From: Pseudoblastomonas marina | GTDB lineage: Bacteria; Pseudomonadota; Alphaproteobacteria; Sphingomonadales; Sphingomonadaceae | Assembly (NCBI RefSeq): GCF_014641655.1 | Contig: NZ_BMID01000001.1 | Coordinates: 1,602,427 to 1,666,426, forward strand | DNA length: 64,000 nucleotides | Reading direction: 5' to 3' | Part shown: piece after piece, positions 46,271 to 49,006 of the stretch | Layout: the number at the start of each line of letters is the position of its first letter | Position numbering within the stretch: position 1 is the first letter of the stretch | The notes under the pieces: generated by a model | What the model saw: the letters and a program-made list of their open reading frames with translations, nothing else | Database searches by the model: none | What the model was told of the DNA's origin: nothing | Translations under genes and position numbers: made by a program

Positions 46271-46371
46271 CAATCCTCCGTCGCGAGCCTGTACAACTCC
46301 CGCGCCGCGTCGAGCGGCTTGACCGCTTCGCCCTCCTCGAAGCGCCAAAAAGTCCAGCCGCTGCAGCCGAG
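46271..46371 (-). pseudogene. Fragment of ccrM 3' end, distal copy
   Basis: On the minus strand this encodes CSGWTFWRFEEGEAVKPLDA and then [11 protein letters not shown], matching the last 33 or so residues of the CcrM protein encoded at 47849-49006. The stop codon is changed (TGA to TGC). The 52 bases at 46271-46322 match 47275-47326 of the other copy with a single difference. There is no start codon in frame. The fragment begins within four bases of the stop of the membrane protein gene upstream of it. Confidence 0.9.
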
Positions 46372-46374
46372 GCG

Positions 46375-47196
46375 CTAGCTCAGCTCCTGCGCTTTCCCGA
46401 GCGCCCGTCGTGTCCTCGATACCGGCAAGACCGTGGCGGTTAGCAACACCCCGACCAGCAGCAGGACGGCGACGAAGGTCATGACGAGATCGAGCGAACC
46501 TACGGTGGCGGTGAGTCCATCGATCAGACCGAAACGTTCCAGCAACAAGCGGATCCCTTCATTGGCGAAGAACGAGGCACCCACGAGCAGGAACGGCCAG
46601 CGGTCGCGCGATTTGAGCAGAAAGAGCGCCAATCCGCCCGAAAGGCACACCAACTGGCCCGTCATCGCGGCCAGCCCGAACCGGTAAAAGGTTTCCGGCC
46701 CCTCGATCCGGAATTGCGGCACAAAGCCGATCAGCGCGAAAAACAGCGCGATGCCGCCAAACAGGATGAGCGTGCTCAGCAGCAGGTGGCCGTGAAGGAT
46801 CCGGCGTTTCTTGAACAGGAAGGCCAGGACGATGAGCAACGCCAGTTCCAGCGTGACCATCACGTTCTGCACGATCAGGAAATCGCCCTCGCCGGAAGCC
46901 GCGCCCTTCTTGGCGGAATAGACGCTGAGTGTTGCGACCGTCGCCACGATGACTGGGCCGACCAGCAGCACCGCCAGCCCCACCCTGCGGTGCAGCGCAT
47001 AATCGCCCTTCGCGATCACGATCAGTTGCGCAAGCACCAGCAATATCCATCCCAAGGATGTTATGAGGTGAGCATAGTGATGCGGCTGTGGATCGGCCTG
47101 CGCTCCGAGGAAGAGATCCCAAAACCCCAACGCGCTGACGACCAGAACGACCGCGACCAGCGTGAAATCCGGTAGATATCGCCCGGTACGTTTCAT
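46375..47196 (-). CDS. Eight-helix membrane protein of unknown function
   Basis: 273 residues with about eight hydrophobic segments; GGGGGG lies shortly before the ATG. Possible metal or heme ligands are HHYAH (39-43), LHRR in the loop after helix 2 and ILHGHLLLS. The pattern resembles uncharacterised DUF2306/DUF420-like integral membrane proteins, but I cannot assign a family. It lies between two copies of the ccrM 3' end: it begins 77 bases after one and ends about four bases before the other. Confidence 0.75.
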   Translation of the reverse strand: MKRTGRYLPDFTLVAVVLVVSALGFWDLFLGAQADPQPHHYAHLITSLGWILLVLAQLIVIAKGDYALHRRVGLAVLLVGPVIVATVATLSVYSAKKGAASGEGDFLIVQNVMVTLELALLIVLAFLFKKRRILHGHLLLSTLILFGGIALFFALIGFVPQFRIEGPETFYRFGLAAMTGQLVCLSGGLALFLLKSRDRWPFLLVGASFFANEGIRLLLERFGLIDGLTATVGSLDLVMTFVAVLLLVGVLLTATVLPVSRTRRALGKAQELS

Positions 47197-47273
47197 GTGC
47201 AGCCCCCCGCGGGGGCAAGCTTATCGCGCGCGCAATGGCGGCGCAACGGCGGACGCGCAGGAAGACGTTCGCC

Positions 47274-47423
47274 TCAATCCTCCGTCGCGAGCCTGTACAA
47301 CTCCCGCCCCGCGTCGAGCGGCTTGATTTCGCCCGCATCCTCAAAGTGCCAGAAGGTCCAGCCGTCGCAACTGGGGGCGCCTTGCAGCTTCGCGCCCAGC
47401 GCGTGGATCGAGCCGTCGGTCTT
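47274..47423 (-). pseudogene. Fragment of ccrM 3' end, middle copy
   Basis: On the minus strand this encodes [40 protein letters not shown] and LYRLATED, then a stop. That is the last 48 or so residues of CcrM, with only a handful of amino-acid changes and the stop kept, while the DNA differs mainly at third codon positions. It has no start codon and overlaps the TAA of the preceding small secreted protein gene. The missing part is the whole methylase domain; what remains is the C-terminal (RAMA-like) DNA-contacting region. Confidence 0.92.
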
Positions 47424-47835
47424 AGCTCGCTTCGCTTAACGTAATCTCGATCCGCAAGGGACGCACCCCGGGGGCTTGGTTGCCGTATTCGATCCGGACG
47501 GGTTCACCGATCCGGAGCTTCAGCCTGGGTGCGAAGCTGACATCGCCCAAAGTAGGCGAGGTGGCGTCGATCTGCGAACGCATATCGATCATGCCCGCAT
47601 CGTCGCGAGTGAAAGTCACGTCGGCGCGATAGCTGCGCCCGTCGGGCTTTGTGATATGGACGGTTGCCGTCTCGCCATCGCGGACCTGCAGTTCGGGCTG
47701 GGCGATGGTCTCGCCATTGTCGGTGAGGTCCATGCTCATCGTGTAGAGCGCGGGATCGGCCGGCGCGACATAGCCCGAGAGCGCGAGCGCCATCGGGATG
47801 GCGGACGACGCGGCGAATTTCGTGGCCAGCTTCAT
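47422..47835 (-). CDS. Small secreted protein of unknown function
   Basis: 137 residues from the ATG at 47835; GAGGGGAGG overlaps the end of ccrM and serves as the ribosome site, so it may be co-expressed with ccrM 13 bases upstream. An N-terminal signal-like segment (to about VAPADPA) is followed by a beta-rich domain: YTMSMDLTDNGETIAQPELQ, ATVHITKPDGRSYRADVTFT and PLRIEITLSEAS. It resembles periplasmic proteins with a single beta-sandwich, but no family is recognised. It is flanked on both sides by ccrM 3' sequences. Confidence 0.75.
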   Translation of the reverse strand: MKLATKFAASSAIPMALALSGYVAPADPALYTMSMDLTDNGETIAQPELQVRDGETATVHITKPDGRSYRADVTFTRDDAGMIDMRSQIDATSPTLGDVSFAPRLKLRIGEPVRIEYGNQAPGVRPLRIEITLSEAS

Positions 47836-47848
47836 CGCAAACCTCCCC

Positions 47849-49006
47849 TCAGTCTTCGGTCGCGAGCCGGTACAGTTCGCGCGCGGCGTCGAGCGGCTTG
47901 ATTTGGTCGCCGTCCTCGAAGTGCCAGAAGGTCCAGCCGTTGCAGCTGGGGGCGTCCTGCAGTTTCGCGCCGAGCGCATGGATCGAACCGTCCTGCTTGC
48001 CGTGGGCCAACGAGCCGTCGGCGCGGACCGTGGCTTCCCACCGGCGCTTCTTGTCGAACACGACCGTGCCCGGCTTGACGAATCCCGCCTCGACCAGCGC
48101 GCCGAAGGCGACGCGGGGCGCATTGCGCTTGGCCTGCATGGTGGTGATCGCGCTTTCGTCGAGCGGGAGTTCCTTCTCGATCCGGGCGGTCGCGACGCGG
48201 CGGTATTTCGCCTCGCGCTCGCAGCCGATCCATTCGCGGCCCAGGCGCTTGGCGACCGCGCCGGTGGTGCCGGTGCCGAAGAACGGGTCGAGCACGACGT
48301 CGCCCTTGTTGGTGGTGGCGAGCATGACGCGGTAAAGGAGGCTTTCGGGCTTTTGCGTCGGGTGAGCCTTGTGCCCGTTCTCCTTCAGGCGTTCCTGCCC
48401 GCCGCAGATCGGCAGGACCCAGTCGCTGCGCATCTGCAATTCGTCGTTCAATGTCTTCATCGCGCGATAGTTGAACGTGTAGCGCGATTTCTCGCCCATC
48501 CCCGCCCAGATCAGCGTCTCGTGCGCGTTGGTGAAGCGGGTGCCGCGGAAGTTCGGCATCGGGTTCGACTTGCGCCAAATGATGTCGTTGAGGATCCAGA
48601 AGCCGAGGTCCTGCAGTGTCGCGCCGACGCGGAAGATGTTGTGGTAGCTGCCGATGACCCAGAGCGAGCCATTGGGCTTCAATACGCGGCGCGCCTCGGC
48701 CAGCCAGGCGCGGGTGAATTCGTCGTAGGCGCGGAAGCTGTCGAAGCGGTCCCAATCGTCGGTCACCGCATCGACATGGCTGCCGTCGGGGCGATTGAGA
48801 TCGCCGCCGAGCTGGAGATTGTAGGGCGGATCGGCGAACACCATGTCGACGCTGTCGTCGGGCAGCGAACGCATCGCCTCGATGCAGTCGCTGTCCAAAA
48901 TCTTGCCCAACGGCAATAGTTTGCGACGATCTTCTTCGGAAAGCTTGAGCTTCCGCTTCGGCTGCTTCGCGCCTGCGAGCGCCTTCGTTTCCATGACCTG
49001 GCCCAT
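47849..49006 (-). CDS. ccrM: CcrM-type GANTC adenine DNA methyltransferase
   Basis: 385 residues. A beta-class N6-adenine methylase: motif [12 protein letters not shown] comes first (59-62 for DPPY), then [15 protein letters not shown] (SAM binding) near residue 245. A C-terminal extension of about 85 residues ([15 protein letters not shown] to the end) is the CcrM-specific domain that holds DNA strands apart. CcrM methylates GANTC late in the alphaproteobacterial cell cycle and tunes transcription. GGGGGAAGGA precedes the ATG. The upstream region has a CtrA-like box and four GANTC sites. Confidence 0.97.

Follow-up and report, generated by a model that had tools for sequence, protein, structure and literature searches.

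Displaced ccrM 3' ends between ccrM and folP in Pseudoblastomonas marina and relatives: possible scars of repeated one-sided DNA import

The ccrM locus and its cargo

The window (the whole 64,000-nucleotide stretch of Pseudoblastomonas marina DNA that was analysed) contains an intact ccrM gene whose 3' end occurs twice more before the next conserved gene. Along the minus strand, rnhB is followed by ccrM, a gene for a 137-aa protein, a ccrM tail copy, a gene for a 273-aa membrane protein, a second tail copy, a short spacer, and folP. All gene names other than ccrM, including rnhB, folP, and pntA, are what we take these genes to be, and the label "REP-like" is likewise our assumption.

49238..49882, minus strand: rnhB, conserved upstream neighbour (open reading frame; homologues lie upstream of ccrM in most loci examined)
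47849..49006, minus strand: intact ccrM, 385 aa, with N6_N4_Mtase and RAMA domains (open reading frame, Pfam)
47422..47835, minus strand: cargo 1, a small secreted-looking protein of 137 aa without a Pfam family
47274..47423, minus strand: tail scar 2 (middle copy), ccrM 3' end of about 150 nt, frame open to the stop
46375..47196, minus strand: cargo 2, a membrane protein of 273 aa without a Pfam family
46270..46371, minus strand: tail scar 3 (distal copy), ccrM 3' end of about 102 to 104 nt, stop codon lost
46130..46216, no strand assigned: REP-like inverted repeat in the spacer between the distal scar and folP (sequence; similar repeats occur in other loci)
44878..45990, minus strand: folP (dihydropteroate synthase), conserved downstream neighbour (open reading frame; homologues lie downstream of ccrM)

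Self-comparison of the window recovers three in-register copies of the ccrM tail, as an earlier note on this DNA had claimed. Identity to the gene's own tail amounts to 84% over 144 nt for the middle copy and to 81% over 97 nt for the distal copy. In the whole genome, the tail is found at three places (E values of 1e-73, 2e-39, and 9e-21), and the next-best match has an E value of 0.03. Both extra copies share the strand and the reading frame of ccrM, with no stop within the translated stretch; the distal copy is without a stop codon (GAGGATTGC). The middle and distal copies have exactly 52 bases in common, with one mismatch, in full agreement with the earlier description. The small cargo gene runs to 47422 and the middle copy starts at about 47423; for the membrane-protein gene and the distal copy, the corresponding positions are 46375 and about 46371. 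Thus, the claim that the copies abut the stop codons of the cargo genes is correct for the window. It is not general: the gap from cargo gene to tail is 8 nt in the pntA locus L152 described below and about 36 to 185 nt in other cases.

Homologues of the 137-aa protein occur in 2 of 297 other family genomes searched, plus locus L055. The homologous gene immediately follows ccrM in L055 and G203, and in G244 it lies away from ccrM, beside a presumably obg-like gene. The 273-aa membrane protein has one close homologue (51%), in G157, away from ccrM; the listed ones among its other matches, which fall in 47 further genomes and twice in the window's genome, are weak (at most 36% identity). In the sister genome (G059, the other genome of the window's genus compared), the flanking genes are kept and both window cargo units are absent, and the homology of the window to this genome picks up again at about 46122. 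The earlier note had asked whether the two cargo units are present or absent as exact units in relatives. The cargo proves variable: both units are missing from the sister genome, the membrane protein has its close homologue elsewhere in G157, and small-protein homologues occupy the same place in two other lineages. The G059 locus (L041, 2511-5117) has an entirely different ccrM-folP cargo, including a gene that we take to be phospholipase-D-like, and no tail scar.

Recurrence and divergence of displaced tails

We collected 145 distinct ccrM loci, that of the window among them, 142 of which have folP downstream (L059, L076, and L112 are without folP and outside the 142; L076 and L112 stop just past ccrM, and L211 starts within ccrM). 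The ccrM-folP order is conserved across the 142 loci with a gap of -4 to 5592 bp, which exceeds 400 bp in 67 loci (variable DNA) and is 400 bp or less in 75 (empty sites). Given this spread, the ccrM-folP interval is a site of variable gene content flanked by two conserved genes. Cargo can also be shared: a hydrolase stretch from L050 recurs in the ccrM-folP interval of L210 with 80% DNA identity over 843 nt and, therefore, the same cargo occupies the same site in two genus labels.

A ccrM-tail profile combined with a nucleotide search of the 111 intervals that are 30 bp or longer (together 128 kb) identified extra ccrM tails in 4 of the 67 cargo-bearing loci, including the window; the other 63 intervals have no recognisable ccrM tail. 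In all, there are six tails, each on the same strand as ccrM. Five extend past the stop-codon position or to no more than 4 nt from it, and the sixth, a decayed tail (71% identity) behind the hydrolase gene of L050 (Qipengyuania citrea H150), ends 8 nt short. L145 (genome G392) has one tail (177 nt, 92%) after an FMO-like monooxygenase gene on the opposite strand, and L146 (genome G373) has two, one behind a TonB-receptor gene and one behind a small gene; both genomes stand under one genus label, g78. Aligned scar lengths are about 150, 104, 177, 120, 47-60, and 91 nt. As the scar starts differ, there is no fixed attachment core.

In a reversed-interval control, the tail search returned nothing below an E value of 0.8, and in an upstream control E values were at least 1 everywhere except in L211 (E value of 2e-36), where the stretch contained ccrM itself. 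A screen of 397 family genomes, which could miss decayed tails like that of L050, found 120 with more than one ccrM-tail match at an E value of 1 or less. Among the 106 of these that were examined (all but G025, G028, G056, G074, G077, G097, G117, G118, G149, G228, G273, G317, G329, and G331), only the window's genome (G000), G392, and G373 have extra tails near ccrM. A strong match away from ccrM in G285 was rejected as a second full-length gene on another contig, and other distant matches are weak. This second ccrM-like gene (contig 21, 24270-24431) has an open frame of 367 codons. Repeats just past ccrM in L193, L203, L223, and L224 and pairs in L214 and L208 were also rejected, being REP-like or of low complexity. 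REP-like repeats akin to that of the window lie around ccrM in L193, L203, L223, L224, and L214 and can mimic scars.

The longer tails differ from the intact ends mostly at silent sites. The middle copy and ccrM are separated by 17.5 silent and 8.5 replacing differences (silent excess, P 4e-7), which bears out the earlier inference that this copy diverged while coding. In the four longer scars, silent differences from the own tail amount to 17.5/26, 11/20, 10/12, and 9/14, and pN/pS is 0.14, 0.22, 0.06, and 0.17 (P between 4e-7 and 1e-3); the short scar of L146 (3/6; pN/pS 0.39, P 0.22) is not informative. Because the differences are silent-biased, scar and own end would have diverged mostly during a time when both were coding. 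Judged by these sequences, the longer tails and the intact ends diverged inside working ccrM genes of different genomes. A simple model of in-place duplication and drift, with equal branches and an omega of 0.11 on the gene branch, predicts about 33-36% silent differences for a free scar, versus the 55-83% seen in the four longer scars. The model is rejected with a combined P of 5e-6 over five scars, or 4e-5 at a mean omega of 0.5 instead of 0.555.

Similar tails are found at other genes. When the 145 loci (1.54 Mb) were scanned mechanically for local direct repeats, 36 pairs came to light. The informative pairs, 19 in number, are those in which just one of the two copies falls within an ORF that has homologues in 10 or more other loci. 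These comprise 14 3' tails, one 5' end, and 4 internal pairs, and the extra copy is downstream in all 14 tail pairs. Six of the tails are from ccrM. The others derive from rnhB (L056), folP (L188 and L197), the transhydrogenase gene pntA (L152 and L199), a gene that is presumably dehydrogenase-like (L188), and an Na/Ca exchanger (L048, Pfam; 98% identical on a 5.4-kb MAG contig and possibly an assembly effect), and one is doubtful (L056 4814-4850, 37 nt, antisense ORF), without which 13 tails remain. L152 has the order pntA, small gene, pntA tail, another gene, and next transhydrogenase gene; in relatives, the sequence matching the latter follows pntA directly (an empty site).

Two related genomes carry 3'-end repeats of what we take to be a sigma-54-type regulator gene, downstream of the gene (L145 7464-7524 and L151 5085-5140). 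These are possibly the same event and were left out of the tail count, since both copies lie in ORFs scored as conserved. At the other end of the interval, L217 (2645-2731) has a 68-nt folP 5' fragment without a start codon, upstream of folP within variable DNA, and L220 has a 25-nt match to the folP 5' region; both might be mirror scars.

The same scan, with pairs read by eye, revealed no clear tail in 800 kb from two genomes outside the locus, where about 7 would be expected at the ccrM-locus density (computed with 14 tails). This suggests that the rnhB-ccrM-folP region is a hotspot for tails, although the two samples are different in kind.

Possible origins of the tails

We consider it probable (roughly 0.6) that the extra ccrM tails are scars of repeated DNA import by homology-facilitated illegitimate recombination (HFIR), homologous at one end and illegitimate at the other, with no mobile element involved. 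A linear piece of DNA, derived from a related bacterium, would recombine by homology at one end, in or beside ccrM, and its other end would be joined illegitimately inside a ccrM 3' end, leaving a truncated tail downstream of the cargo. In one geometry, the incoming piece would carry ccrM and cargo while the resident tail stays behind, which predicts a foreign intact end. In the mirror geometry, the piece would start inside a foreign ccrM tail and recombine homologously on the folP side. Repeats of the event would build the order ccrM, cargo, tail, cargo, tail, folP. Each event would leave ccrM complete and under its own promoter, so that such events could be tolerated and repeated. The combination of a homologous with an illegitimate joint would explain the truncated 3' end behind the cargo, the variable truncation, the lack of a nearby recombinase, and the repetition. 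The vehicle could be transformation, a gene transfer agent, or conjugation, and either copy may be the foreign one. The excess of 3' over 5' ends suggests that the keeping of a gene's promoter may decide which joins survive.

Recombination with foreign ccrM was one of three origins raised by the earlier note. It is supported by the silent-site pattern and, in one relative, by a tree: the distal scar of L146 groups with other species and its own tail groups with L051 (support of 0.73 and 0.84). Both window scars fall inside the clade of the window's genus (support of 1.0), and in L145 the scar and its own ccrM are sisters (support of 0.96), so donors in these cases would be close kin. Thus, close or moderately close relatives would be the source of the tail alleles. 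A search for a foreign intact tail in four loci, against the 10 nearest relatives, detected none (mean z of -0.17, 0.52, -0.03, and 0.63), and scars are no closer to relatives than own tails are. Therefore, the version in which the scar is native and the intact end imported is not confirmed. No crossover point was detected, although the tail alleles are xenologous by silent sites. We found no donor and no DNA-level empty site with the very sequence that follows a ccrM scar, and a loose tblastx empty-site comparison gave mostly weak, scattered matches. Counter to an order with the newest scar next to the gene, it is the shorter and not clearly fresher scar that sits nearer ccrM in L146. The 63 cargo-bearing intervals without a tail, the 800 kb in which no clear tail was seen, and the missing Ku match of G392 also weigh against the import model. 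DNA uptake is plausible and Ku does not seem essential, as the ComEC family is present in 4/4 genomes checked and Ku in 3/4, the scar-bearing G392 being without a Ku match.

Xenologous tails beside an intact upstream gene would also be predicted if a circularised or longer foreign fragment had integrated by a single crossover, leaving one ccrM gene on each side of the cargo, and the downstream copy had afterwards been deleted except for its 3' end. PMC3240628 names circularisation followed by a single crossover as one of two outcomes for linear DNA that enters E. coli. However, this route requires a second event each time, and none of 93 intervals of at least 100 bp contains a full or long second ccrM, despite six tails of varied length. 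Thus, we regard it as unlikely.

The geometry (an intact gene upstream, 3' fragments downstream, and direct repeats around the cargo) also fits integrative elements that attach at the ccrM 3' end with an integrase supplied from elsewhere, each integration restoring ccrM and displacing the old tail; the earlier note had raised repeated insertion of this kind as a possibility. Tyrosine integrases (PF00589) are indeed present elsewhere in the genomes, with 3 matches in the window's genome, 11 in G373, and 4 in G392. In this search, which covered tyrosine recombinases, the matches nearest to ccrM are 331, 306, and 183 kb away, respectively. A Pfam scan of six cargo proteins found the window's two to be without a family and the others to be an FMO-like monooxygenase, a TonB receptor, a DUF6414-like protein, and a hydrolase; none is a tyrosine integrase, and no recombinase or insertion sequence was recognised among these six. 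Furthermore, the scars range from about 47 to 177 nt, start at different points, and share no identical core. Their silent-biased differences are scattered, and rnhB, folP, pntA, and other genes have tails of this kind too. We consider this proposal decidedly improbable.

The remaining suggestion of the earlier note, that the tails are remains of tandem ccrM paralogues, has fared worse and appears very improbable; on this reading, the paralogues would be ancient and unrelated genes would have been inserted later. Two functional paralogues would also diverge at silent sites, but only 3' ends are found, with lengths that differ between genomes. When ccrM without its final 200 nt was used as query, the same 93 intervals yielded only short matches (L210 and L217), and a scar in the ccrM lineage of another species, partly seen for L146 in the tree, also speaks against paralogy. 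Duplication of the target in place at cargo insertion (a long target duplication) is hardly credible given the silent fraction above, although direct target repeats around inserted genes are the form reported in Helicobacter pylori, as cited in PMC1643837.

Comparison with known systems

One-sided import of this type has a laboratory precedent. HFIR, as described in PMC3240628, joins one homologous and one illegitimate end and adds inserts of about 1 kb on average with no mobile element. The ccrM tails are likewise without a recombinase or insertion sequence at the insert (as judged from six cargo proteins, and with tyrosine integrases at least 183 kb away). An HFIR product would be expected to have 3-10 bp of microhomology at its illegitimate joint. 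The HFIR insertions were scored in the laboratory and coupled to deletions, whereas the events at ccrM would be natural and repeated and would leave gene tails behind. In the type VI effector-immunity arrays of Vibrio, successive additions shift the 3' end of the older gene back, and HFIR has been proposed (PMC5361080 and PMC9711863). There, the retained part is an immunity gene of likely benefit; here, we see housekeeping genes, dead tails, and unrelated cargo. The long target duplication of H. pylori (PMC1643837) is similar in having a direct target repeat around inserted genes and different in that the copies at ccrM are diverged alleles, not fresh duplicates.

A limited literature search did not find a report of housekeeping-gene tail scars, and the available portion of PMC3410848 contains nothing direct on them. 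More tentatively, and at well below even odds, the rnhB-ccrM-folP region might act as an integron without an integrase, in which the 3' ends of essential genes serve as landing sites for linear DNA of relatives and stepwise additions can each leave a datable tail scar. If so, gene gains made without a mobile element would stay on record in the chromosome.

No mobile element can be recognised in many of the gene-transfer hotspots that lie between core genes, and the model given for them involves homology on both sides (PMC5635113), which by our reasoning would leave no scar. How new genes first enter such element-free hotspots is a question that displaced housekeeping tails address. These tails would be the footprint of the joint itself and are searchable in any genome. 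They could tell one-sided from two-sided recombination, and their silent changes help to date the events.
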